Source of the DNA: an uncultured Clostridia bacterium | GTDB taxonomy: Bacteria > Bacillota > Clostridia > Oscillospirales > Oscillospiraceae | Assembly (NCBI GenBank): GCA_945873695.1 | Contig: CAMCDX010000007.1 | Coordinates: 1 to 35,238, forward strand | Direction of reading: 5' to 3' | DNA: 35,238 nt | In this document: in pieces, positions 1 to 15,106 of the stretch | How positions within the stretch are numbered: the first letter of the stretch is position 1 | Layout of the letters: every line of letters starts with the position of its first letter | The notes under the pieces: generated by a model | Database searches by the model: none | Seen by the model: the letters and a program-made list of their open reading frames with translations, nothing else | What the model was told of the DNA's origin: nothing | Translations under genes and position numbers: made by a program

Positions 1-52
1 CCCCTGCAAAATGCAACCCAGTTGCTTTAAGCAGAGGTTTTTCGACAAGCTG
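1..52 (+). repeat. 52-bp dispersed box, copy A
   Basis: This 52-bp segment recurs in inverted orientation at 26438-26489 with one mismatch. It contains a small hairpin (GCAAC, loop CCA, GTTGC, positions 13-25) enclosed by CTGC/GCAG (positions 4-7 and 31-34). It ends in GTTTTTCGACAAGCTG, directly followed by an intrinsic terminator. The left end is at the window edge, so the element may extend further. I see no protein-coding reason for the conservation. It could be part of a dispersed palindromic repeat or the 3' part of a structured RNA. Confidence 0.8.
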
Positions 53-83
53 AGGACCGGCTCTTGTGAGCCGGTCCTTTTTA
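53..83 (+). terminator. Intrinsic terminator after repeat copy A
   Basis: A perfect 10-bp stem (53-62 with 69-78) and a 6-nt loop are followed by a run of five T on the plus strand. It would end a plus-strand transcript entering from the left of the window or arising in the repeat. On the minus strand the same hairpin lies just beyond the DUF6881-like gene but lacks a U tract. Confidence 0.8.
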
Positions 84-91
84 TGTTTGTA

Positions 92-367
92 TCAGAAAAA
101 CATCCCCATGAAGCCGTCGGGCATCTGACGGCTCTGATCCCAGATATCGTCAAACTGCACCCGGTTCAGAGCCGTCACATCGCCCTCGGAGCCGGCGGCC
201 TGCCGAGGGTCCATGGGAGGCTCGTCCAGGTCGTCATAGGGCTGGTACAACCCCACCCGGAATACCTCCACCTTCCGCCGGGGGCAGCCCCGGCTGTCCA
301 GCTCCAGATACAACTTCCAGGGCTCGTCCGGCTCCTCGTGGTCCCATTCGATCACATAATACTGCAT
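92..367 (-). CDS. DUF6881-like small protein
   Basis: A 91-residue acidic protein rich in aromatic residues. It begins MQYYVIEWDHEEPDEPWKLY, and the later pattern (ELDSRG, RRKVEVFR) resembles the DUF6881 domain, for which no biochemical role is established. The ATG at 367 is preferred over upstream in-frame starts because a GAGGAG ribosome binding site lies just before it and because longer versions overlap the upstream gene. It starts 10 bp after the alanyl-tRNA editing gene, so the two are probably cotranscribed. No signal peptide or membrane segment is visible. The family call comes from pattern recognition only. Confidence 0.65.
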   Translation of the reverse strand: MQYYVIEWDHEEPDEPWKLYLELDSRGCPRRKVEVFRVGLYQPYDDLDEPPMDPRQAAGSEGDVTALNRVQFDDIWDQSRQMPDGFMGMFF

Positions 368-377
368 ACGATTCTCC

Positions 378-1526
378 TCACTTACTGAAAAAACGCTGGA
401 TATCGGCCTGAGATGCCTGGACACTGCCCTGGGCGAAGCCATTCCGGCCGCCGCCCCGGCCGTTCAGAGCCTTATTCAGATCCTTCACCAGAGCGGAGAT
501 ATCCTGAGCGTCGGGGTGGACCAGGGCGTAGGCGTATTGTCCGTCCTCCCCGGCGAACACAGCGGCCAGGCCGCCGGCACGCTTCGCCACGGTATCTGCC
601 AGACGGCGCACGCTGTCGCCCTTCATGGCGGGCTGGAACAGCACCACATCGCCGGCGCCCTCGTTCTCCTTAGCGATGGCGTCAAACACAGCCTCCTCCA
701 AATGGGTGGTCCGGGCCTTGGCGGCGGACAGTTCCGCCTCCAGCCGCTCCACCGCCGCCAAGGTGTCCAGAGGTTTGACACTGAGCTGCTGGCCGATGGC
801 TTTGGCCTGGTCGTAGGTCCCGCCCAGGTAGTCCAGGGCCCGTTTGCCGCAGAGAATCTCCAGCCGGACGCCCTCCCGGAACTTCTGGCAGGAGAGGACC
901 TTAATGAGGCCCACCTGGCCCGCCCGCAGGACATGGGTACCGCAGCAGGCGCAGCAGTCGGCCTCCGGGAATGTGACGATGCGGACCTGGCCCGTCAGCT
1001 CCTTTTTGCTGCGGTAGTCCAGAGCCGCCAGCTCTTCGGGGGAGGGGTAATCAATCTCCACCTCCCGGTCCGCCCAGATGACCTCATTGGCTTTCCGTTC
1101 CGCGTCCAGGGCCTGCTCCCAGGAGATGTCGGCGTTGTAGTCGATGGTGACGGTGTCCGCCCCCATGTGAAAGCCCACGTTGTCGCAGTGGTAGTCCCCG
1201 CAGAGGATGCCGGAGATGATATGCTCACCGGAGTGCTGCTGCATATGGTCGAACCGCCGTGCCCAGTCGATGCGCCCGGTGACCATCTGTCCGGTTTCCA
1301 CAGGCTTATCACAGGTGTGGAAAATCACCCCTCCTTTTTCATGAACATCGGTAACCTTCGCATCGTTCAGAGTGCCATGATCCGCGGGCTGACCGCCGCC
1401 CTCGGGATAGAAGGCGGTGCAGTCCAGCACCACCTGAAAGCCGTTTTTTCCGGCTTCGCAGGACAAAACGGTGGCGGGGAAGTCCTTGATGAAGGGGTCA
1501 ATGTAGTAGAGCTTTTCCGTTTCCAT
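378..1526 (-). CDS. Alanyl-tRNA editing protein (AlaX-type, with DHHA1 domain)
   Basis: A 382-residue free-standing editing protein of the alanyl-tRNA synthetase family, predicted to hydrolyse mischarged Ser-tRNA(Ala) or Gly-tRNA(Ala). The N-terminal part has the AlaX/AlaRS pattern (AFYPEGGGQPADHG, about residues 38-51). The zinc-binding site is visible as HSGEH (H98, H102) and CCACCGTH (C194, H198). The C-terminal part ends in a DHHA1-like glycine-rich stretch (GRGGGRNGFAQG). There is no aminoacylation domain, so it is a trans-editing factor rather than a truncated AlaRS. The ATG at 1526 follows a GGAAG ribosome binding site; the longer 402-residue reading has no better site. It lies 22 bp downstream of a GNAT gene, probably in one operon. 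Confidence 0.88.
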   Translation of the reverse strand: METEKLYYIDPFIKDFPATVLSCEAGKNGFQVVLDCTAFYPEGGGQPADHGTLNDAKVTDVHEKGGVIFHTCDKPVETGQMVTGRIDWARRFDHMQQHSGEHIISGILCGDYHCDNVGFHMGADTVTIDYNADISWEQALDAERKANEVIWADREVEIDYPSPEELAALDYRSKKELTGQVRIVTFPEADCCACCGTHVLRAGQVGLIKVLSCQKFREGVRLEILCGKRALDYLGGTYDQAKAIGQQLSVKPLDTLAAVERLEAELSAAKARTTHLEEAVFDAIAKENEGAGDVVLFQPAMKGDSVRRLADTVAKRAGGLAAVFAGEDGQYAYALVHPDAQDISALVKDLNKALNGRGGGRNGFAQGSVQASQADIQRFFSK

Positions 1527-1548
1527 GTGGAAAACTTCCTTTCGATTG

Positions 1549-2307
1549 TTATAGGAGCGGTTCACCTTGCGGCGAGCATCGGACAAAGGCCCGGTACGGA
1601 TCTCCCGGCGTATAGCCCAGCCGTTCCGCCAGGGACAGGGAGGAGGCGTTGTGGGCGTCCCAGCTGGGGTATATCCCCCGGTCCAGACATTCCAGGATCA
1701 GCGCCGCACCGCAGGCCCTGGCAAGGCCATGGCGGCGGAAGTCTGGATGGGTGTCGATTTCAATTTCAATCCCGCCGTCAAAAGTGGCATAGGAGGATGC
1801 TCCGGCCACCAGAGTGTCTCCCCGCAGGACGGCAAAGCCCAGCCCCAGGGCTTGGAAGCACGCCCAGGTGGGATATTGGGATACTAGGTCCTGACTCCAG
1901 GTATTTTCTAAACACAAATTGTATAATTTTTGATTAATTATCCGAACAGTATAAGAATTTGGCAGGCTGCTGGCGTATATTTGCAGAGCTTTCCGGTCAA
2001 AAATGGTGTCTTTCCGGGTGGCGTAGCGGGTGATGGGCTGAATACCCCGGCCAAACCGGGCGGCGATTGCGGCTGCCCAGGCGTCGTTTTGGGGAATCAG
2101 CAGGGGAACGGAAACGGCGTCCAGCAACGACTTGTCAGGGCTTCCGGCGAAAAAGGAGAAGTCTCCCAGGACCGCCGCGGCGGAGAGCATGGATTCGGTA
2201 GTGTATACGTTCCCCATGCGACCTTGCAGACAGGCCCATAGAATGCCCTCCGGCCAGGCACCGAACAGGGGCGCGGCCGGGGACGGGACAGACAGCTTTC
2301 GAATCAT
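1549..2307 (-). CDS. GNAT-family acetyltransferase
   Basis: A 252-residue protein whose C-terminal half carries the GNAT acetyl-CoA binding pattern (about residues 187-197, HPDFRRHGLARACG), followed by the usual AGxxNxxSxxLxxxxGY-like helix (DAHNASSLSLAERLGY). The N-terminal half is not recognisable, as in two-domain GNAT proteins of the PF12746 type. The start at 2307 is chosen because its ATG overlaps the TGA of the upstream NagZ-like gene as ATGA, implying translational coupling. The substrate is unknown. A short stretch at about 1900-1970 is much more AT-rich than the rest of the gene, but the frame stays open through it. Confidence 0.75.
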   Translation of the reverse strand: MIRKLSVPSPAAPLFGAWPEGILWACLQGRMGNVYTTESMLSAAAVLGDFSFFAGSPDKSLLDAVSVPLLIPQNDAWAAAIAARFGRGIQPITRYATRKDTIFDRKALQIYASSLPNSYTVRIINQKLYNLCLENTWSQDLVSQYPTWACFQALGLGFAVLRGDTLVAGASSYATFDGGIEIEIDTHPDFRRHGLARACGAALILECLDRGIYPSWDAHNASSLSLAERLGYTPGDPYRAFVRCSPQGEPLL

Positions 2308-3479
2308 AGAATGCCATCCAGAAGCCCCAGAAATTGCTTCCATCGCAACACCCGGCGGCAGGCTGCGTCGATGACATCCTCGGAGAGCATGCCGTTTTCC
2401 ACGGCGTCGATGACCTTGGGAATCTGGGCCCGATAGTCAGTGGTGAGGACCAGATCGTTGCCGGCCTGGAGGGCCATGACAGCCACGGCCCCGTCGGCGG
2501 CGTAGGCGCTGACAGCGTCCATGGCCAGGTCGTCGGTCATCACCACACCGTCGAAGCCCAGTTCCTCCCGCAGGATGCGGTGGACAGCGGGGGAGAGGGA
2601 GGCGGGCAGGTTCGGGTCCATACACTCCACAATGTTGTGGGAGACCAGTACGGAAGTCAAGGCGCCGCCGCTGTCAAAACCGGCGGAGAAGGGGAGGAAG
2701 TCCCCGCTGATGAAATCCTCATAGGGCCGATCGTCCACGGCGATGCCGGTGTGGGTGTCGGCGTTGCTGCCGTAGCCGGGGAAGTGCTTCAGCACACTGC
2801 CCATCCCATCTCCGGACATTTTCGCGGTGACGGCGGAGACGTAACTGGCTGTTGATGTTTCGTCTTGCCCAAAAGAGCGGGGATAAATGAAGTCGCCGGG
2901 GTCTGTGGATACATCCGCCACCGGGGCTAGGTTCACGTTGAAGCCCAGAGCCTTCAGCAGCACATCCTTCTCGTGGGCGTCCGCCGTGACGCGGTCCATG
3001 CCGCCCAGGGCGTACAGCCGTTGGGGAGAGGCGAATTTCTCACTGCGGATGTGAGGGTTGGAGCTGACCCGCACCACGGTGCCGCCCTCCTCGTCCACGC
3101 CGATCAGCAGCGGGATGGCGGCGGTGTCCTGGTAGCTTTGGATGGTCTGAATGAGCTCGTTGGCGGTGTTGTCTTTCGTGTCCCGGCCGAAGAGGATGTA
3201 GCCGCCCAGGTGGTAAGTACGCACGTCCTCCACAGCATTCTCCGCCGGGCAGCGGACAAAGAACAGCTGGCCCACCTTTTCCTCCAGGGTCATGGAGTCC
3301 AGCAGAGTATCCACAGGATCAGCGGGCTCAGGCTCCGGTTCCAGCTGAGGCTCCGGGGCGGCCGCTTCCTCCTGAGTGGGGGGAGCGGGGTCCTCTTCCG
3401 AAGAGGCAGCTGTTTCGCCGCAGGCGGAAAGAGACAGCAGGGAACAAGCGGCCAGCAGCGCCGCCAGCAGTCGTTTCAT
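2304..3479 (-). CDS. Glycoside hydrolase family 3 beta-N-acetylhexosaminidase lipoprotein (NagZ-like)
   Basis: A 391-residue secreted lipoprotein. It starts MKRLLAALLAACSLLSLSAC, a signal peptide ending in a lipobox with the anchored Cys at residue 20, followed by a Glu/Pro-rich linker. The GH3 catalytic domain shows KHFPGYGSNADTHTG (about residues 230-245), which supplies the catalytic Asp/His dyad typical of NagZ enzymes, and VVMTDDLAMD (about 312-321), with the nucleophile probably D316. It should release beta-linked N-acetylglucosamine from peptidoglycan fragments outside the cell. The ATG at 3479 has a GGGAGGTG ribosome binding site. Its stop overlaps the start of the GNAT gene downstream. 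Confidence 0.87.
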   Translation of the reverse strand: MKRLLAALLAACSLLSLSACGETAASSEEDPAPPTQEEAAAPEPQLEPEPEPADPVDTLLDSMTLEEKVGQLFFVRCPAENAVEDVRTYHLGGYILFGRDTKDNTANELIQTIQSYQDTAAIPLLIGVDEEGGTVVRVSSNPHIRSEKFASPQRLYALGGMDRVTADAHEKDVLLKALGFNVNLAPVADVSTDPGDFIYPRSFGQDETSTASYVSAVTAKMSGDGMGSVLKHFPGYGSNADTHTGIAVDDRPYEDFISGDFLPFSAGFDSGGALTSVLVSHNIVECMDPNLPASLSPAVHRILREELGFDGVVMTDDLAMDAVSAYAADGAVAVMALQAGNDLVLTTDYRAQIPKVIDAVENGMLSEDVIDAACRRVLRWKQFLGLLDGIL

Positions 3480-3506
3480 AGGCACCTCCCGGAGCTTGAT
3501 GTGGAT

Positions 3507-3535
3507 AGTGTACCACAAAGCGGAGAAAAAAGAAA
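3507..3535 (-). promoter_or_regulatory. Candidate extended -10 promoter for the NagZ-like gene
   Basis: On the minus strand TGGTACACT gives a TGN-extended -10 (TACACT at 3512-3507), 27 bases before the start codon. The -35 region is poor. It lies just after the aspS-operon terminator, where a new promoter would be expected. Confidence 0.35.
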
Positions 3536-3558
3536 GGGCGCGGGTGTTTCCCGCGTCC
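3525..3558 (-). terminator. Intrinsic terminator of the hisS-orf-aspS operon
   Basis: A 9-bp GC-rich stem with one mismatch (3558-3550 with 3544-3536) and a 5-nt loop are followed on the minus strand by TTTCTTTTTT. It lies 20 bp beyond the duplicated aspS tail at 3578-3633, not directly after the functional aspS stop at 3801. This suggests it is the original aspS terminator. Confidence 0.8.
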
Positions 3559-3577
3559 TTTCCGGCTAAAGCAGACG

Positions 3578-3633
3578 TTATTCCTCAGGCTTTACCAGGG
3601 CAATGTGCAGCTCATCCAGCTGCGCCTGGGTGA
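3578..3633 (-). pseudogene. Detached duplicate of the aspS 3' end
   Basis: These 56 bp match 3801-3856, the last 18 codons plus stop of aspS, at 54 of 56 positions. Read on the minus strand they encode a tail ending HIALVKPEE and a stop; the functional gene ends HIALVKPQE. The two copies are in direct orientation, offset by 223 bp. No start codon or rest of the gene accompanies this copy. Confidence 0.9.
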
Positions 3634-3800
3634 TTCCCCAAAAGGCGGGGCCTTTTGGGGAGCCCCTTTGATTTGAAATGCTCGGTGGAAATGAATTCCG
3701 CCTGCGCCAAGGTTTTGCCTGCCGGCAAAACGCTTGACGCGCCTGACGGCGCGGCTCGCCGTTGGCTCGCCCGAAGTCACCGGGAAAAGCTGGCGGTTTC
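3634..3800. repeat. 167-bp palindrome-rich insert between aspS 3' duplicates
   Basis: The segment between the two aspS tail copies encodes no convincing protein. It begins with a strong hairpin (stem 3636-3645 with 3651-3660, loop CGGGG). It also contains TTTTGCC/GGCAAAA and GCGCC/GGCGC inverted repeats and a near-direct repeat GGCTCGCC/TGGCTCGCC. This hairpin-dense composition resembles REP-like intergenic repeats or the remnant of an integrated element. No transposase fragment is visible. Confidence 0.65.
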
Positions 3801-5576
3801 TTATTCCTGGGGCTTTACCAGGGCAATGTGCAGCTCATCCAGCTGCGCCTGGGTGACTTCGCTGGGGGCGTCCATCATCACGTCCTGGGCGTTCTTGTTC
3901 ATGGGGAAGGGGATGATCTCCCGGATGGAGTCCTCGCCGGCCAGCAGCATGACCATGCGGTCCACGCCGGGGGCAATGCCCGCGTGGGGGGGCGCGCCGT
4001 AGGTGAAGGCGTTGTACATGGCGGGGAACTTAGCCTTCACGTCCTCCTCGCCCAGGCGGACCAGCTCGAAGGCCTTGATCATGATCTCGGGGTCGTGGTT
4101 CCGCACGGCGCCGGAGCTGAGCTCCACGCCGTTGCACACCAGGTCGTACTGGTCGGCGGTGATGGACAGGGGATCGATCTCACCCCGCTCGGCCTTCAGC
4201 AGCACTTCCAGGCCGCCGGAGGGCATGGAGAACGGGTTGTGGCAGAACTCCAGCTCACCGGACTCGTCGCCGATCTCGTACATGGGGAAGTCCACGATCC
4301 AGCAGAAGGCGTACTGTTCCTTATCCATGTGGCCGGGGACGGCGGCGCCCAGGGTCTTCACCAGGACGCCGGCGGTCTTCTGGGCGGCACCCAGGGTACC
4401 GGCGGACAGAGCCACGAAGTCGTTGGCCTTCAGGCCCAGAGCGGACACCACGGCGTCCTTGATGGGCTGGACGAACTTGGCGATGCCGCCCACGATTTCG
4501 CCGTTCTCGTCCAGGCGGAACCAGTAGGGCTTGCCGCCGGAGACGACCTCCACGTCGGCCAGGGTCTTGTCGATGAACTTGCGGGTCTCGTGGAAGTCGG
4601 AGACCACCACGGCCTTGACCACGTTGCCCTCGAAGGGGCCGAAGCCGCAGCCGCCCAGAACAGAAGTGACATCCTGCACCGTCAGGTCGATACGCAGGTC
4701 GGGCTTGTCGGAGCCGTACTTCTCCATGGCCTCCAGATAGGGAATGCGCATGAAGGGCGCGCCGCTGGCACGGTCATACTTGCCGTATTTGGCGAAGATG
4801 GGGGGCAGGACCTTTTCACAGACGGCAAACACGTCCTCCTGGGAGGCGAAGGCCATCTCCATATCCAGCTGGTAGAACTCGCCGGGGGAGCGGTCGCCCC
4901 GGGCGTCCTCGTCCCGGAAGCAGGGAGCGATCTGGAAGTACTTATCGAAACCGGAGGTCATCAGCAGCTGTTTGAACTGCTGGGGAGCCTGGGGCAGAGC
5001 GTAGAACTTGCCGGGATGCTTCCGGGCGGGCACCAGGTAGTCCCGGGCGCCCTCAGGGGAGGAAGCGGTCAGGATGGGGGTGGTGATCTCCAGGAAGCCC
5101 TCGGCGGTCATGGCCTGACGCAGGGCGGCCACCACGTTGCAGCGCAGGATGATGTTGCTCTTGACCTCAGGGTTCCGCAGATCCAGGTAGCGGTACTTCA
5201 GCCGCAGGGCCTCGTCGGCCTCCCGGCTGCGGTTGATCTGGAAGGGCAGCTCGTTGTGGCGGCAGCGGCCCAGGACCTCCACCTTGGCGGGGACAACCTC
5301 AATGTCGCCGGTAGGAATTTTGCTGTTCTTGGAGTCCCGCTCCCGGACGGTGCCCTCCACGGAGATGGTGGATTCCTTGGTGATGGCCTTGAAGGTGTTC
5401 ACCATGTCCTCGGTCTCGGCCACCACCTGGGTGGTGCCGTAGAAGTCCCGGACGATCACGAAGGCCAGGCTGGCGGAGACCACGCGGACGTTCTCCATCC
5501 AGCCCACGATCTTGACCTGTTTGCCGGCGTCAGCGATGCGCAGTTCGCCGCAGGTGTGGGTACGATTCTGCATCAT
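3801..5576 (-). CDS. aspS: Aspartate-tRNA ligase
   Basis: A 591-residue bacterial-type class II AspRS that charges tRNA(Asp), and possibly tRNA(Asn) if nondiscriminating. The order is an N-terminal OB-fold anticodon-binding domain (about 1-110), the catalytic core with motif 2 (FRDEDARGDRSPGEFYQLD, about 220-238), the bacterial GAD insertion (about 290-410), and motif 3 (GIAPGVDRMVMLLAG, about 531-545). The length is normal for the family. There are two consecutive ATGs at 5576 and 5573; an AAAGGA ribosome binding site lies upstream. It is the last gene of the T-box-led hisS-orf-aspS unit and has a 23-bp AT-rich dyad before it. Its 3' end is duplicated just downstream. Confidence 0.97.
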   Translation of the reverse strand: MMQNRTHTCGELRIADAGKQVKIVGWMENVRVVSASLAFVIVRDFYGTTQVVAETEDMVNTFKAITKESTISVEGTVRERDSKNSKIPTGDIEVVPAKVEVLGRCRHNELPFQINRSREADEALRLKYRYLDLRNPEVKSNIILRCNVVAALRQAMTAEGFLEITTPILTASSPEGARDYLVPARKHPGKFYALPQAPQQFKQLLMTSGFDKYFQIAPCFRDEDARGDRSPGEFYQLDMEMAFASQEDVFAVCEKVLPPIFAKYGKYDRASGAPFMRIPYLEAMEKYGSDKPDLRIDLTVQDVTSVLGGCGFGPFEGNVVKAVVVSDFHETRKFIDKTLADVEVVSGGKPYWFRLDENGEIVGGIAKFVQPIKDAVVSALGLKANDFVALSAGTLGAAQKTAGVLVKTLGAAVPGHMDKEQYAFCWIVDFPMYEIGDESGELEFCHNPFSMPSGGLEVLLKAERGEIDPLSITADQYDLVCNGVELSSGAVRNHDPEIMIKAFELVRLGEEDVKAKFPAMYNAFTYGAPPHAGIAPGVDRMVMLLAGEDSIREIIPFPMNKNAQDVMMDAPSEVTQAQLDELHIALVKPQE

Positions 5577-5612
5577 AGTTGGTTGTTCCTTTCTGTATTT
5601 CGATTATGATTT

Positions 5613-5635
5613 GTATATTTTAAATACAATATTAC
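5613..5635 (-). promoter_or_regulatory. 23-bp AT-rich dyad upstream of aspS
   Basis: On the minus strand this reads GTAATAT, 9 bases, AAATATAC: an imperfect inverted repeat of 23 bp, 36 bases before the aspS start. The same length and half-sites occur before mscL (10361-10383) and dut (21760-21782). It may be an operator or part of a promoter; no regulator is identified. Confidence 0.45.
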
Positions 5636-5644
5636 GAAACGGAT

Positions 5645-6163
5645 TTAATTTGCGGCCTGTTCCCACAGCGCATGAGCCATTTCCTGTCCAATTTCTTTAC
5701 TGTTCTTCATCAGCAGCGGCAGGGAAACGCTGTGTGTAAAGTCCTCGTAGTGCCAGGCATCCACGCAAAATGATAATTCTTCTGACCGCCAGACCTTCTG
5801 CCCGTTATCCTGAGCAAAGCCGATGATCATATTTCCAATGTCGCCATCCTCCAGAGTCTTGGAGGTGTTGACGGCGTTCTGTAAAAACGGCAGGATTTGC
5901 AGCAGCGGATTTAGAGGAGAACGGCGAAAGCGAAGCCCCTGGATTTGGCTCCAGAATGCGTCGAATCCCGGTGTTCCGGCCGAAAAGCGAAGACGGCGGC
6001 TGTTGTGGTCTCTGCCGTCGAACTGAATCAGCAGGACATCTGCCATATCCGGTTCCAGGTCCGGGAAAAGCGTCTCGACGCCTACCGGGCGGCTGTACCA
6101 GCCACACCAGCAGACCAGCGCCAGCAGCACCGCTGCAGCCGCGATTTTCCAGCGTTTTTTCAT
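5645..6163 (-). CDS. Hypothetical membrane-anchored protein between hisS and aspS
   Basis: A 172-residue protein of unknown family. Residues 1-4 are basic (MKKR) and residues 6-22 form one hydrophobic segment, so it is either an uncleaved N-terminal anchor or a signal peptide. The remainder is predicted outside the membrane and has no motif I recognise. The start at 6163 follows GAAAGGAA at normal spacing. It begins 36 bp after the hisS stop and ends 68 bp before aspS, so it should be cotranscribed from the T-box leader. By eye it is less GC-rich than hisS and aspS, which would fit later acquisition. A link to translation is not implied by its sequence. Confidence 0.75.
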   Translation of the reverse strand: MKKRWKIAAAAVLLALVCWCGWYSRPVGVETLFPDLEPDMADVLLIQFDGRDHNSRRLRFSAGTPGFDAFWSQIQGLRFRRSPLNPLLQILPFLQNAVNTSKTLEDGDIGNMIIGFAQDNGQKVWRSEELSFCVDAWHYEDFTHSVSLPLLMKNSKEIGQEMAHALWEQAAN

Positions 6164-6199
6164 ACGAATTTCCTTTCGCCCTCGACACGGACGGGCATA

Positions 6200-7558
6200 T
6201 CATCCCAGGATAACAGCGCCCTTTTCTTTCTCCGCCAGGCCCGCCTTGATGCGGTAGATGGTGGCGGCGGGCTCCAGCTTGGTCTGCTCGCCGGTGGTCA
6301 TGTCCTTGCAGGCCACCACGCCGGCGTTAATCTCGTCCTCGCCCAGAAAAATGACGTAGGGGATGCCCAGCTTGTCGGCGTAGGAAATCTTCTGCTTGAA
6401 CTTCTTCTCCTCGCAGTGGAGCTGGGTGCGGATGCCGTTCTCCCGCAGCTGCGTTGCCAGGGAGATGGCGGCGGACAGGTCCTCGGTCATGGGCAGGATC
6501 AACACGTCGGCGGGGGCGGTGGGCAGCTCCGGGTTCAGCATCCCCTGTTCGCCCAGAACGTAGAACAGCCGGGTGAGGCCGATGGAGATGCCCACGCCGG
6601 GGAGCTGGCGGTCAGTGTAGTACTCCGCCAGGTTGTCGTAGCGGCCGCCGGAGCAGACGGAGCCGATCTCCGGGTGGTCCAGCAGGGTGGTCTCATACAC
6701 GGTGCCGGTGTAGTAGTCCAGGCCCCGGGCGATGGTCAGGTCCACGGCAAAGTTCTCGGCGGGGACGCCGAAGGCGGCCAGGTACTTCACCACGGTGTTC
6801 AGCTCCGCCAGGCCGGTATCGAACACCTCATTCCGGCCCTGATAGCCCTCCAGCGCCGCCAGCACCTCCTCGTTGGTGCCGGTGATGGCGATGAACTTCA
6901 GGATCTCGCCGGCCTGCTCTTCGGACAAGGCAATTTCTTCGTCCATGAGAATAGCCTTCACCTTTTCGGGACCGATCTTGTCCAGCTTATCCACGGTGCG
7001 CATGATGTCGCCGGACTTTTCCGTCAGGCCAAGCATGGCATAGAAGCCGTTCAGGATCTTCCGGTTGTTCACCCGGATCTGAAACCGTTTCAGGCCCAAG
7101 GTGGAGAAGGTCTTATAGATGATGGCGGGAATTTCCGCCTCGTTGGTGATGGACAGCTTACCGTCGCCGATAATATCGATGTCCGCCTGATAGAATTCCC
7201 GGAACCGGCCCCGCTGGGCCCGCTCGCCCCGGTAGACCTTGCCGATCTGGTAGCGGCGGAAGGGGAAAGAGAGGTCGTTGTAGTGCAGGGCCACGTACTT
7301 GGCCAGGGGGACCGTCAGGTCGAACCGCAGGGCCAGGTCGGCGTCGCCCTTCTGGAAGCGGTAAATCTGTTTCTCGGTCTCGCCGCCGCCTTTGGCCAGC
7401 AGCACGTCGCTGGATTCGATGACGGGGGTGTCCAGAGGGGTGAAGCCATAGAGGGAGTAGGTGCGGCGCAGCACCTCCATAATGCGCTCCATCTGCTGCT
7501 GGGGCGCGGGGAGGAGCTCCATAAAGCCGGACAGCGTCCGGGGAGTCATTTTAGCCAT
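6200..7558 (-). CDS. hisS: Histidine-tRNA ligase
   Basis: A 452-residue class II HisRS, normal for bacteria. Motif 2 is at about residues 106-123 (YRGERAQRGRFREFYQAD). The histidine-specific signatures are GLDYYTGTVYE (about 278-288) and CSGGRYDNLAEYY (about 299-311). The C-terminal anticodon-binding domain follows (VLILPMTED onward). The ATG at 7558 has an AAGGAG ribosome binding site; a much longer upstream reading runs through the T-box leader and is rejected. It is the first gene behind the promoter and T-box at 7701-7975, followed by the hypothetical membrane protein gene and aspS. Confidence 0.96.
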   Translation of the reverse strand: MAKMTPRTLSGFMELLPAPQQQMERIMEVLRRTYSLYGFTPLDTPVIESSDVLLAKGGGETEKQIYRFQKGDADLALRFDLTVPLAKYVALHYNDLSFPFRRYQIGKVYRGERAQRGRFREFYQADIDIIGDGKLSITNEAEIPAIIYKTFSTLGLKRFQIRVNNRKILNGFYAMLGLTEKSGDIMRTVDKLDKIGPEKVKAILMDEEIALSEEQAGEILKFIAITGTNEEVLAALEGYQGRNEVFDTGLAELNTVVKYLAAFGVPAENFAVDLTIARGLDYYTGTVYETTLLDHPEIGSVCSGGRYDNLAEYYTDRQLPGVGISIGLTRLFYVLGEQGMLNPELPTAPADVLILPMTEDLSAAISLATQLRENGIRTQLHCEEKKFKQKISYADKLGIPYVIFLGEDEINAGVVACKDMTTGEQTKLEPAATIYRIKAGLAEKEKGAVILG

Positions 7559-7700
7559 GGTCGTTCTCCTTCTTTCAATAGGTTGATCGGTAAAAGTTTC
7601 GCCGGCCGCTTGTGCCCCGAAGGTGGATTTCAAAGGCCGTGGGGTCTGGGGTGAAACCCCGATGGGGGCGGGCAAGGCCTGCCAAACTGTTTTGGGAATC
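7559..7700 (-). other. hisS 5' untranslated region after the T-box terminator
   Basis: These 142 bp lie between the T-box terminator and the hisS start. They contain the hisS ribosome binding site and a short GGGG/CCCC hairpin at about 7653-7665. I see no gene here. Confidence 0.6.
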
Positions 7701-7739
7701 AAAAAGAATGCTCCCGTCCCAAGGCTTTGGGACGAGAGC
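7701..7739 (-). terminator. Regulated terminator of the T-box leader
   Basis: A 13-bp stem with one mismatch (7739-7727 with 7722-7710) and a 4-nt loop are followed on the minus strand by ATTCTTTTT. It lies directly after the T-box sequence, as expected for the terminator that competes with the antiterminator. Confidence 0.88.
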
Positions 7740-7940
7740 GAAAACCGCTTCGTGGTGCCACCCAAATTCGGGGCGTGACGCCCCCTTTGGCCTCCTGGTA
7801 CGGGGAGGGTGCCGTGGGCGTTTCCGCCCCCGCTCCGCCGCTGTCCTTCGTCCAGGCCGACCAGGGCGCTCTCAGCGCCGCGTCCCTCTCTGTGGGTCGG
7901 GTATTGGAGTACTGCTGCGGCATCCATGCGGTAAAATCCA
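7701..7940 (-). ncRNA. T-box riboswitch leader of hisS-orf-aspS, specifier GAC
   Basis: The conserved T-box sequence GGGTGGCACCACG is on the minus strand at 7763-7751, followed by a long terminator stem. Stem I is readable. Its base is GCCGC (7921-7917) with GCGGC (7841-7837). The specifier loop has AGTA (7913-7910) opposite CGAAGGACA (7850-7842). The AGAGAG bulge and a GCTG-GAG distal region lie between. The codon just before the base stem is GAC (7845-7843) followed by A, which is Asp rather than His. Uncharged tRNA should favour the antiterminator and permit transcription into hisS. Confidence 0.9.
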
Positions 7941-7946
7941 AAATAG

Positions 7947-7975
7947 ATTCTATGCGCTTTTGCGCAAAATGTCAA
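7947..7975 (-). promoter_or_regulatory. Promoter of the T-box-hisS operon
   Basis: On the minus strand a perfect TTGACA -35 (7975-7970) and TAGAAT -10 (7952-7947) are separated by 17 bp. The -35 overlaps the stop codon of the MgsA-like gene. Transcription would start near 7940, just before the T-box stem I. Confidence 0.88.
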
Positions 7976-8385
7976 GCGATGGGCCGGCTGGAGGGATTCA
8001 CGATGCAGCGCCAGTCCAGGTCGCCCCGGGCCAGGCCCAGCACCAGCATCTCCGCCGTGGCGATGTTGCTGGCAAAGGGGATGTTGTTCTGGTCGCACAG
8101 GCGGGAGATATAAGAGATGTCGCCCGCCATGTTTTCGCTGCTGGGGTCGTTGAAGAACAGGACCATGTCAAACTCGTTATAGGCGATCCGGGCACCGATC
8201 TGCTGGCTGCCGCCGTGGGCGTAGGACAGGAAGCAATGGACCTTCAGGCCGGTGGCGTCGGCCACCATGTGGCCGGTAGCGTTGGTGGCGTAAATTTGAT
8301 GCTGGGACAGAATGCCGGCATAGGCCGTGCAGAACTGTACCATCAGGTCTTTTTTATTGTCGTGAGACATCAGAGCGATGTTCAT
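7972..8385 (-). CDS. Methylglyoxal synthase-like protein lacking catalytic residues
   Basis: A 137-residue protein with the MGS-like fold pattern: SHDNKK near the N-terminus (H8, D9, K12), YATNATG (32-38), FFNDP (77-81) and NIPFASNIATAEML (101-114). Methylglyoxal synthase converts dihydroxyacetone phosphate to methylglyoxal. Aligned from memory with E. coli MgsA, the general base in GGDQQ is Ser here (GGSQQ, S60), the PHDPD segment with the active-site His is NMAGD, and SGP of the phosphate loop is SYA. It may therefore be inactive or bind another ligand. The start at 8385 has an AAAGGAG ribosome binding site. It lies 16 bp after the MinD-like gene and is probably cotranscribed with it. Confidence 0.72.
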   Translation of the reverse strand: MNIALMSHDNKKDLMVQFCTAYAGILSQHQIYATNATGHMVADATGLKVHCFLSYAHGGSQQIGARIAYNEFDMVLFFNDPSSENMAGDISYISRLCDQNNIPFASNIATAEMLVLGLARGDLDWRCIVNPSSRPIA

Positions 8386-8401
8386 GGGGTCAGACTCCTT
8401 T

Positions 8402-9154
8402 CTATTTGATCCGCAGCAGGGGGACTCTGCCGCCCTGGATGCGTTTTGCGATGTTGCGGTACGCGGAAGAGCACAGCTGTCCTTCGGCCAACAGGATGGG
8501 GACGCCCCGGTTCAGGCACAGGGGGAGAGCGTCATCCTCCGGGACCACGCCCAGGAGGGGAAGCCCCGCTTTGTCGATGGCATCGTCGATGGTGGCGTGA
8601 AGCTGGCGGAGCATCTTCTTCCGCACCCGGTTCACCACCAGGTGCAGGGACCCAACGGGGAACCGCTCCAGTTCCATAACGGTATGCTGGGCGTCCCGCA
8701 GGGAAGAGGCATCGGCGGTAGTGACCACCACGCAGCGGTCGGCGCCGCAGGTGGCCAGCCGGAAGCCGGAGCCCAGGCCCGCCGGCGCGTCCAGCAGGCA
8801 GTAATCATATCGCTTTCGGACCTCGTGGAGCAGGTCGATCATCTGCCCCTCCGTCACCGGACGGCCCCGGCTGCGGGCGGGAGCTGTCAGCAGAAAGAGT
8901 CCGGGAAGCTTGGGGTGCTCCACCACGGCGGAGTCCAGAGAACACCGCCTCTGGGCCACGTCGGAGAAATCCATCAGCGCCCGGTCAGTAAGGCCCAGGG
9001 CCAGGTCCAGGTTCCGCAGGCCCACGTCGCAGTCCAGGCACAGCACCCGCTTCCCGGCCTGGGCCAGGGCGGCGCCGACGCCGGAGACAAAGGAGGTCTT
9101 GCCGGTTCCGCCCTTTCCGGAGACGACGGCGATACACTGACCTGAGGATTCCAT
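8402..9154 (-). CDS. MinD/ParA-family P-loop ATPase
   Basis: A 250-residue ATPase of the MinD/ParA/Mrp class. It has a deviant Walker A (SGKGGTGKT, signature Lys14 and P-loop Lys19), the switch I-type DCDVGLRNLD (41-50), which matches MinD better than ParA, and Walker B CLLDAPAG. MinD proteins recruit partners to the membrane to position division. The C-terminus (AYRNIAKRIQGGRVPLLRIK) could form a short basic amphipathic helix, but no clear MinD targeting sequence is seen. No minC or minE lies nearby. The ATG at 9154 has a strong AAAGGAGGT ribosome binding site and a promoter upstream. It pairs with the MgsA-like gene; mgsA beside minD is a neighbourhood familiar from Clostridia. Confidence 0.82.
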   Translation of the reverse strand: MESSGQCIAVVSGKGGTGKTSFVSGVGAALAQAGKRVLCLDCDVGLRNLDLALGLTDRALMDFSDVAQRRCSLDSAVVEHPKLPGLFLLTAPARSRGRPVTEGQMIDLLHEVRKRYDYCLLDAPAGLGSGFRLATCGADRCVVVTTADASSLRDAQHTVMELERFPVGSLHLVVNRVRKKMLRQLHATIDDAIDKAGLPLLGVVPEDDALPLCLNRGVPILLAEGQLCSSAYRNIAKRIQGGRVPLLRIK

Positions 9155-9201
9155 GGAAAGACCTCCTTTTAGTAAGTTTATGTGGGCAAGCCGACAATTC
9201 T

Positions 9202-9231
9202 ATTATAACGGATTCTTTTTGATTTTTGCAA
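9202..9231 (-). promoter_or_regulatory. Promoter of the minD-like/mgsA-like genes
   Basis: On the minus strand TTGCAA (9231-9226) is followed after 18 bp by a perfect TATAAT (9207-9202). It overlaps the 3' end of rsmG and is about 50 bases before the MinD-like start codon. Confidence 0.65.
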
Positions 9232-9898
9232 ATGGTCTGGGGTATTTTTTCGGCGATTCTTTGATTTTTTTTATAAAAATCAGCCGGTGGCGGACATCTG
9301 TGCCCGGGATGACGTAATCCTTTACCTCCGAGACCTGTCCACCCAGGGTCGAGATGGCCTTTTTGGCGGCTTCCAGCTCTGCGTCAGAGTCCACGGATTT
9401 CATGGACAGGAAGGTGCCGCCCACCTTCACAAGGGGCAGGCACAGCTCAGTGAGCATCTGGAGATTGGCAACTGCCCGGGAGGTGACGATGTCAAAGGAC
9501 TCCCGCCGGTGGGCCGCGAATTCCTCGGCCCGGGCGTGAACGCAGTCTACATCGGCCAGACCCAAGTCGCCGCAGACCTCTTTCAGAAAGTCGATGCGCT
9601 TATTCAGGGAATCCAGCAGGGTCAGGCGGATGGAGGGCTCCAGAATGCGCAGGGGCATGCCGGGGAAGCCGGCGCCGGTGCCCACGTCCACCACCGACTT
9701 GCCCCGCAGGTCCGTCAAGGTCAGGAGGGCGGCGCTGTCCAGAAAGTGGAGGGCGGCGATGTCGGCAGGTTCCGTGATAGCGGTCAGGTTCATGACCCTG
9801 TTTTTTTCAATCAGAAGTTCGGCATAGCGCATCAGAGCGGGGACGCCGTCAGTGGACAGCCCCAGGGTGGTGAGACCGTCTCGCAGGAGCTGTTCCAT
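9203..9898 (-). CDS. rsmG: 16S rRNA (guanine527-N7)-methyltransferase RsmG
   Basis: A 231-residue SAM-dependent methyltransferase (older name GidB) that modifies G527 of 16S rRNA. Diagnostic features are NLTAITEP (37-44), HFLDSAALL (51-59), the SAM-binding VVDVGTGAGFPGMPL (69-83), and TSRAVANLQMLTE. The last 20 or so residues are lysine-rich. Its ATG shares one base with the stop of mscL (TAATG), so translation is probably coupled. In many Firmicutes rsmG follows mnmG and precedes noc/parAB; here it lies on the far side of serS from parAB, with mnmG absent from the window. Confidence 0.95.
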   Translation of the reverse strand: MEQLLRDGLTTLGLSTDGVPALMRYAELLIEKNRVMNLTAITEPADIAALHFLDSAALLTLTDLRGKSVVDVGTGAGFPGMPLRILEPSIRLTLLDSLNKRIDFLKEVCGDLGLADVDCVHARAEEFAAHRRESFDIVTSRAVANLQMLTELCLPLVKVGGTFLSMKSVDSDAELEAAKKAISTLGGQVSEVKDYVIPGTDVRHRLIFIKKIKESPKKYPRPFAKIKKNPL

Positions 9899-10344
9899 TA
9901 TTTCTGTTCCTTCAGCAGGTCCCGGATCTCCGTCAGCAGCTTCTCCTCAGCGGAAGGCTCGGGAGGAGCGGGAGGCGCGGCGGGAGCCTCTTCCTTCTTG
10001 CGGTGCAGGCCGTTGATAAACTTGATGAGGCAGAATACGGCGAAGGCGATGATGAGGAAGTCCAGAATGGTGGCCAGGAAGGCGCCGTATCGGATGGCCA
10101 CCTCGGTGGCGGGGTCGATGGCGCCGTCAGCGCCGGCCACAGCGGCCTTCAGGACAATCTTCCAGTTGGAGAAGTCCACGCCGCCGGTGAGCATGGAGAC
10201 GGCGGGCATGATGACGTCATTCACCAGAGAAGTGGAGATCTTGCCGAAGGCGCCGCCGATGATGACGCCGACGGCCATGTCCATCACGTTGCCCCGGGCG
10301 ATAAATTGCTTGAATTCCGCGATAAAGCCGGTATCTTTTGCCAT
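9898..10344 (-). CDS. mscL: Large-conductance mechanosensitive channel
   Basis: A 148-residue MscL channel that opens under membrane tension to release solutes. The N-terminal [20 protein letters not shown] helix and first membrane segment (about 21-47, glycine/alanine-rich, [11 protein letters not shown]) are characteristic. The second membrane segment is at about 86-112. The cytoplasmic tail has a Pro/Ala-rich linker (119-133) and a terminal charged helix ([16 protein letters not shown]). The ATG at 10344 follows AGAAAGGA. It overlaps rsmG by one base. A 23-bp AT-rich dyad lies directly upstream and overlaps the stop of the SLH gene. Confidence 0.96.
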
Positions 10345-10360
10345 AAAATCAATCCTTTCT

Positions 10361-10383
10361 GTATAATTTTATAAAAATATTAC
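10361..10383 (-). promoter_or_regulatory. 23-bp AT-rich dyad upstream of mscL
   Basis: On the minus strand this reads GTAATAT, 9 bases, ATTATAC, 16 bases before the mscL start. The TAA within the first half is the stop of the SLH gene. It matches in length and half-sites the motifs before aspS and dut. It may carry an operator or promoter. Confidence 0.45.
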
Positions 10384-11378
10384 AACTCGCTATTACATGC
10401 GCCAATGCGCAGAGCCGGGTCCAGCACCCGGGCCAGCATGACAGCGGCCTGGGCGCGGGTCAGGGAGGCGGTGCCCCGGAAGGAGCCCAGGGCGTCGGCG
10501 CCGTTGAGGATGCCTGCCCGGTACAGGGAACGGATGGCGGCGGTCTGCTGGTAGTCGTACCGCTTACCGGGCACGTCGGGGATGGCGGGGTCCTGATTCA
10601 GCACCGGCAGGTCGCCGCACACCGACCACAGCAGGGCGGCGAAGTCCTCCCGCCAGGCGGAGCCGTCAAAGTCCGGCGACTCCATGTGGGGGGTGGTGAG
10701 GAGGTCGATGTTCTCCCGGTAATCGAGGTAGTAGCTGGCGGGGAACCACCACTGGTCCCAGGCTCCCGCCTCCCTGGCGGCCTGACAGGACCACATGTAG
10801 CCGTTCAGGTGGCTGGCCAGCTCCCGCATGTCCGCCTCCTCCACGATCCATAGCCCTCCCCCAAGTTCAGGAAGGACCCAGCTGGCAGCTTCGTAATGGA
10901 AACCGCTGTCAGGGAAGCCTATCTCCACCCGCAGAGGAAAGGGCGGCGTGAAATCCTCCCGGAAGGAAACGCTGAGATAATGGCCGTCGAAAAACCAGCT
11001 GTTCCCTTCTACGTCCGACAGATTCCCCACCTGCTTGCCGTCGCCGTCGTAAAACCGGACGTAGTCGTCGGCATCGGCGGGGAGGGTGGGGAGGACCCCG
11101 TCACCGCCTTTTAAAATATGGTGGAGCCGGGCGGACAGCACTGTCAGTTGGGCGTAGGTCAGGGGAGCGTTGGGGGAGAAGGCGGTGTCCGACGTGCCGT
11201 TCAGAAGTCCTGCCTCGTAGCAGAGCTTCACGGCGTCATAGCACCAGCTGTCCTCCGCAACATCGGCGAATCCGGTGTACGCCCGGCTTTTCGGGACCTC
11301 TGTATCCCTTGCGCCGCAAGGGATACAGAGAATGGACAGGAATGCAGCCAACAGAAGGGCCGAAATCGTACGCTTCAT
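10380..11378 (-). CDS. Secreted SLH-domain protein
   Basis: A 332-residue exported protein. Residues 1 to about 24 form a signal peptide (MKRTISALLLAAFLSILCIP). One S-layer homology repeat follows directly (FADVAEDSWCYDAVKLCYEAGLLNG), and a second, divergent one ends the protein (IRSLYRAGILNG, then SLTRAQAAVMLARVL). The intervening 200 residues are rich in Trp, Asp and Tyr and belong to no family I recognise. SLH repeats usually anchor proteins to secondary cell-wall polymers. The ATG at 11378 with AAAGGAG is preferred over a longer reading without a signal peptide. It lies 53 bp after serS and before mscL. Confidence 0.85.
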   Translation of the reverse strand: MKRTISALLLAAFLSILCIPCGARDTEVPKSRAYTGFADVAEDSWCYDAVKLCYEAGLLNGTSDTAFSPNAPLTYAQLTVLSARLHHILKGGDGVLPTLPADADDYVRFYDGDGKQVGNLSDVEGNSWFFDGHYLSVSFREDFTPPFPLRVEIGFPDSGFHYEAASWVLPELGGGLWIVEEADMRELASHLNGYMWSCQAAREAGAWDQWWFPASYYLDYRENIDLLTTPHMESPDFDGSAWREDFAALLWSVCGDLPVLNQDPAIPDVPGKRYDYQQTAAIRSLYRAGILNGADALGSFRGTASLTRAQAAVMLARVLDPALRIGACNSEL

Positions 11379-11431
11379 CGCTCCGCTCCTTTCTATCCGC
11401 TGGAAACGGGCCCGGAATCTGGAAAGTTTCC

Positions 11432-12736
11432 TTACTTCTTCGGCACCAGCTTGTCCTTCCCGCCCATGTAGGGCCGCAGGACTTCGGGGATGACGACGGT
11501 GCCGTCGGCCTGGAGGTTGTTTTCCAGGAAGGCGATCAGCATCCGGGGAGGCGCCACGCAGGTGTTGTTCAGGGTATGGCAAAGCTGCATCTTGCCGTTC
11601 TCGTCCTTGTAGCGGATGCGGAGTCGGCGGGCCTGGGCGTCGCCCAGGTTGGAGCAGGAGCAGACCTCAAAGTACTTTTGCTGGCGGGGAGACCAGGCCT
11701 CGATGTCACAGGATTTCACCTTCAGGTCCGCCAGATCTCCGGAGCAGCACTCCAGCTGCCGGACGGGGATGTCCAGGGAGCGGAACAGCTCTACGGAGTA
11801 ACGCCACAGCTTCTCATACCAGTCCTTGGACTCCTCAGGCTTGCAGACCACGATCATCTCCTGCTTTTCGAACTGGTGGATGCGGTACACGCCCCGCTCC
11901 TCGATGCCGTGAGCGCCCTTTTCCTTGCGGAAGCAGGGAGAGTAGGAGGTCAGGGTCTGAGGCAACTTTTCCACGGGGATGATCTGATCAATGAAGCGGC
12001 CGATCATGGAGTGCTCGGAAGTGCCGATCAGGTACAGGTCCTCGCCCTCGATCTTGTACATCATGCCGTCCATATCGGTCTGGCTCATGACGCCCTCCAC
12101 CACGTTGCCGTGGATCATAAAGGGGGGAATGCAGTAGGTGAAGCCCTTACCGATCATAAAGTCCCGGCCGTAGGCCAGCACAGCCTCATGGAGACGGGCG
12201 ATGTCGCCCAGCAGGTAGTAGAAGCCGTTGCCGGAGACCCGGCCGGCGGCATCCAGGTCGATGCCGTCAAAGCTCTCCATGATCTCAGTGTGGTAAGGGA
12301 TGGGGAAGTCAGGAGTGACCGCCTCACCGAACCGCTCCACCTCCACGTTGCAGGAATCGTCAGGGCCCAGAGGCACGGAGTCGTCGATGATCTGGGGGAT
12401 CACCAGCAGCCGCTTGTGGAGCTCGTTTTCCAGTTCCGCTTCCAGCTTCTCCAGCTCCGCCAGCCGGTCCGCCTGTTCCTTCACCTGGGCCTTCACAGCC
12501 TCAGCCTCTGCCAGCTTGGAGGGGTCCTTCTTGGCCTGGCCCATCAGCACGCCGATCTGCTTGGACAGCTGATTACGGTTGGAGCGGAGCTGGTCGGCCT
12601 CCACGATGGCGGCACGGCGCTTGGCGTCCAGGTCGATGACCTCATCTACCAGGGGCAGCTTGGCGTCCTGGAACTTTTTCTTGATGTTTTCCTTGACAAT
12701 GTCGGGATTTTCCCGAATAAATTTGATATCCAGCAT
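11432..12736 (-). CDS. serS: Serine-tRNA ligase
   Basis: A 434-residue class II SerRS with the N-terminal tRNA-binding helical arm (about 30-110, heptad-like Lys/Glu/Leu-rich) and a catalytic domain containing TSEHSM, motif 2 (FRKEKGAHGIEERGVYRIHQF, from about residue 268) and EVCSCSNLGDAQARRLRIRY. Motif 3 is atypical: NNTCVAPPR (390-398), where most bacterial enzymes have NGSGLAVGR. The overall C-terminal part recalls eukaryotic cytosolic SerRS. The start at 12736 has an AAAAGGAG ribosome binding site. A parS site lies about 35 bp upstream. No T-box is visible here, unlike at hisS. Confidence 0.95.
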   Translation of the reverse strand: MLDIKFIRENPDIVKENIKKKFQDAKLPLVDEVIDLDAKRRAAIVEADQLRSNRNQLSKQIGVLMGQAKKDPSKLAEAEAVKAQVKEQADRLAELEKLEAELENELHKRLLVIPQIIDDSVPLGPDDSCNVEVERFGEAVTPDFPIPYHTEIMESFDGIDLDAAGRVSGNGFYYLLGDIARLHEAVLAYGRDFMIGKGFTYCIPPFMIHGNVVEGVMSQTDMDGMMYKIEGEDLYLIGTSEHSMIGRFIDQIIPVEKLPQTLTSYSPCFRKEKGAHGIEERGVYRIHQFEKQEMIVVCKPEESKDWYEKLWRYSVELFRSLDIPVRQLECCSGDLADLKVKSCDIEAWSPRQQKYFEVCSCSNLGDAQARRLRIRYKDENGKMQLCHTLNNTCVAPPRMLIAFLENNLQADGTVVIPEVLRPYMGGKDKLVPKK

Positions 12737-12771
12737 GGTTTTCTTCTCCTTTTATCGTAAAACGAATTGCA

Positions 12772-12787
12772 TGTTTCACGTGAAACA
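12772..12787. promoter_or_regulatory. parS: parS site between serS and the coiled-coil gene
   Basis: The sequence TGTTTCACGTGAAACA is a perfect 16-bp palindrome and matches the bacterial chromosomal parS consensus, the nucleation site for ParB sliding clamps. It lies 1.4 kb downstream of parB in the intergenic space before serS. Confidence 0.93.
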
Positions 12788-12794
12788 TGGGGAT

Positions 12795-13316
12795 TTACTT
12801 GTTCAGCACAGCCTCCTTCAGCTGCTGGTAGCGCTGGGAGGGAGAGGTGACGCCGTCAATGCCGTCCTTTGACAGCAGACCCACCAGACCGTCGTCCTCC
12901 ATACGCTGCATGGTCTGGCGGCAGGCGTCATAGTCGGCGGCGGCGTACTGCTGCTGCAGGATGTACAGGGCGGTCATGGCCTCGGTGTTCTTGCTGGCGG
13001 CCTCGGTCTCGTTCTTCGCCTCCGACAGCTGCTTTTCCAGGTCTTCCGCCTGGCCTTTCAGCTGAGAGAGCTCCTCCTGGAGCTGGATGATCTTGTCCTG
13101 GGTATCCTGAATCTCCTGCATGGCGGACACGGAGTTCTGGAGCTGGCCCAATGCCTCGGTATTGCTGCGCTGGTGCATAAAAAAGGACAGGGCCATCAGC
13201 AAAAACGCGGCAATAAAGAGGATCATGATATAGACAACGACGGGCTTTTTGCCGGAGGGGGCCTTCTGCACCGGGGTTTCTTCCGCCTCGCCGCTGCTTC
13301 GCTTCTCTAATTTCAT
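12795..13316 (-). CDS. Membrane-anchored coiled-coil protein downstream of parB
   Basis: A 173-residue protein with a short basic, Lys/Glu-rich cytoplasmic N-terminus, one membrane segment at about residues 25-47, a coiled coil (about 55-115, Gln/Leu/Glu-rich heptads), and a small C-terminal helical region containing YAAADYDACRQTMQRMEDDG. The family is not recognised. The start at 13316 has GAAAGGAA. It begins 25 bp after parB and lies between parB and a parS site, so it should be cotranscribed with parAB. This position makes a role in segregation or in attaching the origin region to the envelope conceivable, but nothing in the sequence proves it. Confidence 0.8.
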   Translation of the reverse strand: MKLEKRSSGEAEETPVQKAPSGKKPVVVYIMILFIAAFLLMALSFFMHQRSNTEALGQLQNSVSAMQEIQDTQDKIIQLQEELSQLKGQAEDLEKQLSEAKNETEAASKNTEAMTALYILQQQYAAADYDACRQTMQRMEDDGLVGLLSKDGIDGVTSPSQRYQQLKEAVLNK

Positions 13317-13341
13317 AGGTATACAGTTCCTTTCAAAGGAT

Positions 13342-14217: not shown

Positions 14218-14239
14218 GACAAATTCTCCTTTCGAAGGG

Positions 14240-14998: not shown

Positions 14999-15053
14999 AG
15001 AGGCACCTACTTTCCAAAATCCACAGGAGTTTGCGTATGTTTACACATGGCAT

Positions 15054-15082
15054 ATTATATCAAGGCGGATAGAGGCTTGCAA
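15054..15082 (-). promoter_or_regulatory. Promoter of the parAB operon
   Basis: On the minus strand TTGCAA (15082-15077), a 17-bp spacer and a perfect TATAAT (15059-15054) lie about 55 bases before the parA GTG. A parS-like palindrome begins 25 bp upstream of the -35. Confidence 0.75.
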
Positions 15083-15106
15083 GGTCAAACAAGAAAAATT
15101 TCAGAA

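Follow-up and report, generated by a model that had tools for sequence, protein, structure and literature searches.

The closest described systems belong to the IS1182 family of insertion sequences. As set out in the accessible parts of PMC5678879 and PMC4923244, IS1272 and TnSha1 insert in hairpins that have no common sequence, several of which are terminators confirmed by RNA-seq, and they remove the target stem-loop wholly or partly, without duplication. Three older copies of IS1272 are reported in non-hairpin targets in the available text of PMC5678879, which also draws duplication of the whole stem-loop as an alternative path, taken when the stem is joined by the element ends at its 5' feet. 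The direct repeats recorded in ISfinder for the IS1182 family range from 2 to 60 bp, according to the portion of PMC7335449 at hand, and some members of the family target palindromes (Siguier et al., as cited in the accessible parts of PMC5678879 and PMC4923244).

The window analyzed here, the whole stretch of 35,238 nucleotides, is contig C7 from base 1 of an Oscillibacter-like draft genome (1.77 Mb, 138 contigs). It holds two copies of an element that is very probably an IS1182-type MITE targeting terminator hairpins and duplicating them whole. Window positions 1–53 and the reverse complement of 26437–26489 are identical at 52 of 53 bases (98%). The original prediction had taken positions 1–52 and 26438–26489 as a conserved 52-bp box placed before intrinsic terminators with unrelated stems. 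The near-identity is real, with one mismatch, and both boxes do continue into a terminator-type hairpin and a T run whose stems are unrelated. The box is a true repeat but not the unit: it forms the final 52 bp of an element 221 bp long.

Copy 1 consists of this right end (1–52, + strand; 0 mismatches over C7:1–53) and is cut off because the window begins at base 1 of the contig. Its right-hand hairpin, A-GGACCGGCTC-TTGT-GAGCCGGTCC-T, lies at 53–78 (+ strand) and is followed by a T run to 82. This intrinsic terminator was also found by a consensus terminator scan, the range of which was limited to positions 1–20000.

Copy 2 is complete and occupies 26438–26658 on the − strand. It is short (221 bp) and non-coding, with a left terminal inverted repeat CAGGCTGTCGAAAAA at 26644–26658 (− strand) and a right terminal repeat TTTTTCGACAAGCTG at 26438–26452 (− strand). 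Inverted, the right repeat matches the left end at 13 of 15 bases (terminal inverted repeats CAGGCTGTCGAAAAA / CAGCTTGTCGAAAAA). Terminal inverted repeats and mobilization in trans are general features of bacterial MITEs. A subterminal palindrome of terminator-like shape, GTCGAAAAAGTCC-GAC-GGACTTTTTCGAC, is located at 26624–26652 (− strand), and the left end that contains it (26610–26658) folds strongly, with z = −7.3 and none of 200 shuffles as good.

A hairpin adjoins copy 2 on each side. The right-hand hairpin (26408–26437, − strand) runs on into a T run to 26405. The left-hand hairpin (26659–26688, − strand), overlooked by the original prediction, is 97% identical to it, and the pair forms a 30-bp target duplication with 1 mismatch (L011). 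The two flanking genes are convergent. The gene for a DnaC/DnaI-type AAA protein (25411–26406, + strand; PF01695, PF00308) ends at the right-hand hairpin, and that for a VanW/G5-domain protein (26694–28532, − strand; PF04294, 8.5e-49; PF07501) ends at the left-hand hairpin. Among the GTDB records for relatives of the DnaC-type protein (22 loci), the nearest named ones were Oscillospiraceae MAGs, including Oscillibacter and Dysosmobacter.

Two further features of the window were seen. Three GTTTCACGTGAAACA sites (12759–12791, 15094–15126 and 15140–15172), which we take to be a parS-like motif, lie around a ParB gene (13342–14217) and a ParA-type gene (14240–14998); together these make up a chromosome-partition locus. 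A 56-bp direct repeat (3578–3633 and 3801–3856; 96% identity, 223 bp apart) is perhaps a partial duplication of a gene end.

Searching the genome with the 52-bp box, allowing up to 3 mismatches, returned 62 right ends, against 0 for the reversed control pattern. A genome with just the two copies had been named as evidence against a mobile repeat, and with 62 right ends the mobile reading stands. The 49-bp left end gave 83 matches and a 15-bp terminal-repeat pattern 99, some of these last being other families or chance. When compared at 30 nt, the fetched loci comprised 96 distinct left flanks and 62 right flanks. The left flanks were recounted at 150 nt, which gave 97; three of these (L020, L024 and L159) are false because the palindromic left end had matched on the opposite strand, leaving 94 distinct left flanks. 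Many contigs of the bin begin or finish within the element. The exact box core had no match in the genome_contigs and viral_contigs collections, both of which may omit records of this genome.

There are 36 complete copies: 32 of 221 bp, three of 222 bp and one of 150 bp, lengths being given without the final base of the search pattern, a base that is part of the target. The 32 equal-length copies differ on average by 1.73 of 222 bases and at most by 6, with variants at positions 204–205. Judged from the assembled genome, the element is mobile, and its copies look like a recent burst.

The neighborhood of the element edges was then scored for stem-loops anchored within 3 nt of the edge, using a cut-off score of 7. 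An abutting hairpin was found at 60 of 62 right flanks and at 90 of the 95 left flanks scored; of the five left flanks that fell short, two are false matches, hence 90 of 93. Random window positions reached the same score in 81 of 20,000 cases. The flanks without a scoring hairpin are the left flanks of L003 (which has a 6-pair hairpin), L042 and L141 and the right flanks of L003 and L020. Copies lacking terminators, the other observation that the original prediction held would count against mobility, are thus the exception. As in IS1272-type insertion, the target is a hairpin without a common sequence. The two sides are also similar in T content beyond the hairpin (3.5 and 3.7 of 6), which is what bidirectional terminators would give.

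The gene context of the complete copies was taken from a codon-model gene call trained on two window genes. A count based on the longest open frames was set aside, since G+C-rich sequence such as this has long antisense frames. Of the 36 copies, 17 have convergent neighbors, 12 have co-directional ones and none has divergent ones; in 7, the two sides could not both be scored. All scorable copies are located at a gene 3' end, and both orientations of the element relative to the flanking genes occur.

In 29 of the 36 complete copies, the two flanking hairpins are one duplicated sequence of 15–40 bp (median 28). The element therefore has the target site duplication of a MITE, and the length of the duplication agrees with the long, variable direct repeats of the IS1182 family. 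Removal of the hairpin without duplication, the IS1272 type of outcome, does not describe these copies, in which the hairpin is kept and duplicated. Duplications were scored as matches minus three times mismatches, with a threshold of at least 10. Mismatched flank pairs reached this threshold in 0.3% of 6,980 cases, some of which share a real flank. The maximum among them, 28, is expected from two copies with a common left flank. With dozens of near-identical copies, site-specific hairpins abutting nearly all of them and the duplication of these hairpins, the suggestion of a mobile palindromic repeat that targets terminators has held up.

For the center of the duplication, the single-copy site was rejoined by a script and the best hairpin was sought blind to the duplication. 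The duplication center falls exactly on the hairpin dyad in 23 of 29 cases and within 1 nt of it in 28. The sole exception is L058, with a left flank of just 55 nt that shifted the script frame by 5 nt. Agreement is looser at the ends of the duplication: in only 13 of 29 cases do both come to within 2 nt of the maximal stem. The duplication length correlates with the maximal hairpin span with r = 0.66; a value of 0.98, obtained by seeking the hairpin within the duplication, is circular, and 0.66 is the independent one. This lower precision arises because terminators have A/T tracts with more bases able to pair, and the duplication often ends inside these tracts. The duplicated sequence extends symmetrically around the hairpin and holds the G–C stem together with, mostly, a few A–T pairs.

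Seven complete copies are without a good direct duplication (L008, L019, L020-, L026, L037, L042 and L052). In L019 and L052, the hairpins on the two sides are similar, with sequence differences or a small indel between them. Separately, the flanking hairpins of L022 and, by eye, those of L301 in another species were seen to match better with one copy inverted. Such an inverted match may have been left by hairpin processing or by template switching.

Loci of the DnaC-type gene were fetched from 29 relatives. The VanW-type neighbor is present and convergent in 8 of them. The distance between the two genes is 71 bp in G064 (L257), 120 bp in G006 (L270) and 189 bp in G028 (L250), and 488–1039 bp in the other five; it is 294 bp in the genome of the window. 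Sequence resembling an element end was found 3' of the DnaC-type gene in none of the 29 relatives, for which 190 to 1502 bases were available. In G064, one bidirectional terminator hairpin, AAACGCCGCCCGGATGGGCGGCGTTT, separates the convergent genes, and in G006 one strong hairpin lies between them. Because their stems differ from those in the window, these two loci represent the unoccupied state in other species and not the parent sequence.

The original prediction had also offered a structured RNA 3' module, that is, a conserved, non-mobile 3'UTR element standing before terminators and serving RNA stability or regulated termination. Such a module would suit the position of the scorable complete copies at gene 3' ends, where they are probably transcribed, and the strong fold of the left-end palindrome. 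The box itself is predicted to fold as had been described, but the fold is weak (−12.7 kcal/mol, z = −1.5) and barely beats shuffled sequence, 19 of 200 shuffles folding as well; the element copies are too alike to show any covariation. The copies occur in both orientations relative to genes, and the same hairpin on both sides of most complete copies contradicts a 3' module. Moreover, near-identical sequence at dozens of sites, together with the unoccupied orthologous site, points to recent insertion. An RNA module is very improbable, and this part of the original prediction was given up.

In the original prediction, the repeat targets, or travels with, terminators. The first half fits the hairpins described above. 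The second would make the hairpins part of the mobile unit, so that hairpin, element and hairpin travel together or are spread by recombination between terminators. Tandem elements with shared hairpins at L058 and L037 are compatible with this, as are three pairs of sites that have a hairpin-sized stretch in common but not the sequence beyond it: L020- and L037 share 40 nt beside the element on the left, L031 and L052 share 31 nt on the right, and L017 and L141 share 17 nt on the left. These are the only flank pairs (94 left, 63 right; same flanks excluded) that share at least 14 nt, and three are too few for a cargo. In addition, the sequence of the 221 bp is nearly constant and the orthologous sites have a single hairpin without an element. 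The terminator as cargo looks less fitting and is, in our estimate, highly unlikely; the terminator as target of the MITE is retained.

The shared stretches fit occasional recombination, conversion or assembly joins, and suggest that sites can on occasion exchange a hairpin or copy it from one another. L008 and L023 have in common all 300 nt of the left flank shown, with different right hairpins, which fits recombination or an assembly join. The tandem array at L058 reads element-hairpin-element-hairpin. At L037, the order is hairpin-element-hairpin, after which another family begins whose ends are similar (CAGCCTGTCGAGAAACCC); this family is also seen at L163, at a contig end of C55. A duplicated hairpin seems to remain a target, giving arrays that resemble repeats and spacers.

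The original prediction had found no transposase nearby, and for three transposase models this extends to the whole bin: searches with PF01609, PF05598 and NF033551 gave no match there. Elements with the same ends and IS1182 transposase genes were found in relatives. TCAGNNTGTCGAAAAA ends are present in 48 of 86 genomes of the genus, the genome of the window included. A hairpin stands directly outside these ends in 25 of 30 cases (31 ends in 30 loci, one flank being too short), compared with 304 of 20,000 control positions. Among the 25, at least L195 seems to be a palindrome within an element. As for the misses, L175 and L192 look like chance matches in genes and L190 (+) faces the interior of an element; the others are L176 and L183. 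The IS1182 model matched 39 of 86 genomes at E ≤ 0.001, with 6 above the curated cut-off; the weak matches may be other families.

Two relatives link the ends to a transposase. In G031 (L183), an element with the same ends contains a transposase gene in pieces, with matches to DUF772 (5e-17), DDE_Tnp_1_6 (9e-24) and the IS1182 model; no hairpin adjoins the left end of this copy. In G025 (L242), the first 18 bp are identical to those of the MITE, a hairpin precedes them, and the N-terminus of an IS1182 transposase (NF033551, 5.7e-40) follows up to the contig end. The MITE thus shares its ends with a transposase-bearing element in G025, a copy that runs off its contig; the G031 copy is broken. 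G025 also contains two MITEs that match that of the window in 193 of 223 and 191 of 225 alignment columns; the hairpins flanking one of them are unlike, and the other is interrupted by a contig end.

The genome of the window has a second family, found at L161 and L153 (contigs C38 and C67), whose first 19 bp are those of the MITE and are followed by a terminator-like palindrome. Both contigs stop after the outer 52 bp, which also include a stretch resembling that of the G025 element. This family is probably the end of a missing insertion sequence, and the candidate autonomous element has the left end CAGGCTGTCGAAAAAGTCCAGCTGTGGCTGG... On the evidence of the common ends, the MITE would be moved by a transposase of the IS1182 family.

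A series of short elements with similar ends, mostly abutted by hairpins, was also noticed in the genus (L167, L169, L173, L178–L181, L185, L190, L194 and L195). In these, an inverted copy of the end comes at once after the end (GTCGAAAAAGTCTTTTCGAC and the like). They are apparently further MITE families with the same kind of target.

G078, a genome in 2 contigs, has an IS1182-type insertion sequence, mostly of 1,570 bp, in which the transposase frame is open (match to NF033551 at 442.6 bits). Fifteen regions were fetched; 12 contain the left end and 11 both ends. The hairpin is kept and duplicated (23–30 bp) in 7 of these 11 copies, and the other 4 have unlike flanks. G061, which represents another species, has four MITEs about 68% identical to that of the window (161–165 of 237–244 alignment columns). 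Its hairpin duplications are an exact one of 27 bp, an exact one of 30 bp and one of 25 bp with 1 mismatch; the fourth has an inverted loop.

These genomes bear on the possibility that contig-end repeats were misjoined during assembly and so produced apparent flanking duplications. The bin is fragmented (138 contigs), and many of its contigs start or end in the element, a setting in which misjoins could arise. Nevertheless, wrong joins would yield unlike flanks and not identical hairpins. The pattern recurs in the bin G061 and in G078, and hairpin duplication in a genome of 2 contigs strongly argues against an assembly origin. We give an artefact next to no credence.

The structured RNA module, the hairpin as part of the unit and the assembly artefact were all rejected.

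For the IS1182-type MITE, the following course of insertion may be envisaged. What the transposase recognizes in the palindrome would be either an extruded hairpin or cruciform or a symmetric site in duplex DNA. Both 3' ends of the element would be linked to the stem, each at one of its two 5' feet and the two on opposite strands. Gap repair would then copy the whole hairpin and leave a target duplication of about the length of the hairpin.

In a variant of this scheme, the same MITE would have a transposase that reads dyad symmetry in duplex DNA, for example as a dimer bound to two half sites, or the edges of the A- and T-tracts, with no hairpin extrusion. Of the 32 equal-length copies, 27 have A as the first target base, and the ends often lie within an A/T tract and not at the end of the maximal stem, as such a transposase would predict. 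The joining points, on the other hand, are spaced 15 to 40 bp apart with no evident common sequence, which would be hard for a rigid dimer, and there are duplications with G–C outer pairs (CGCAGAG...CTCTGCG and GAGCGTG...CACGCTC). Recognition of the duplex is unlikely on this balance but is to be taken seriously.

With the hairpin duplicated by the MITE, each flanking gene would keep a stem with its own T tract; insertions would then be cheap, and copies would be expected to accumulate at gene ends. The doubled terminator might further insulate both neighbors and make terminators a safe harbor, enabling a density near one copy in every 19 kb (94 left flanks over the 1.77 Mb genome). We consider the chances of this last proposal to be evenly balanced. 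Duplicating the terminator rather than destroying it would be a simple reason for the abundance of the element. In annotating such genomes, it would account for twin terminators and for contig breaks at the ends of genes.

Target duplications are normally fixed in length, reflecting the geometry of the transposase. Here, the length varies yet the duplication is centered on a hairpin, so that dozens of natural insertions are available to test the use of DNA secondary structure by DDE transposases. If the present interpretation is true, the element is a natural counterpart of the hairpin-deleting IS1272 and provides a large natural data set for 'pathway b' of that family. The data also bear on why some IS1182 relatives delete the hairpin and others duplicate it.

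Group IIC introns also insert beside intrinsic terminators. They are 2–3 kb long, encode a reverse transcriptase and move by RNA-based retrohoming, with no target duplication. The element in the window is like them in its siting at terminators only. It is short, non-coding and intergenic, like BOX, RUP, SPRITE and other small repeats as presented in the accessible part of PMC10969869. SPRITE contains terminator-like sequence, whereas in the present element the terminator is the duplicated target, and the same part of PMC10969869 describes no MITE with terminator hairpins as target duplications. In the open-access literature, judged by titles and abstract openings, no whole-hairpin duplication by a MITE was found, and the available text of PMC3196728 has nothing on whole-hairpin duplication.

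The nearest likeness is to IS1272, TnSha1 and TnSha2 of staphylococci, which, in the accessible descriptions, belong to the IS1182 family, use hairpin targets, insert in both orientations per target and have some copies directly downstream of genes. Long, variable direct repeats and palindromic targets, as outlined in the parts of the family accounts at hand, are further points in common with the IS1182 family, the presumed family of the transposase. The available portions of PMC7335449, PMC5678879 and PMC4923244 describe neither a long repeat that is a hairpin nor a burst of MITEs in terminators. Hairpin targeting in the IS1182 family is already known, because IS1272 and TnSha1 insert in hairpins. 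Unlike IS1272, which deletes the stem-loop in the accounts accessible to us, the element in the window keeps and duplicates the whole hairpin. What is new here, as read from the sequences compared, is this opposite outcome, duplication, at scale, in a MITE as well as an insertion sequence, and centered on the hairpin.
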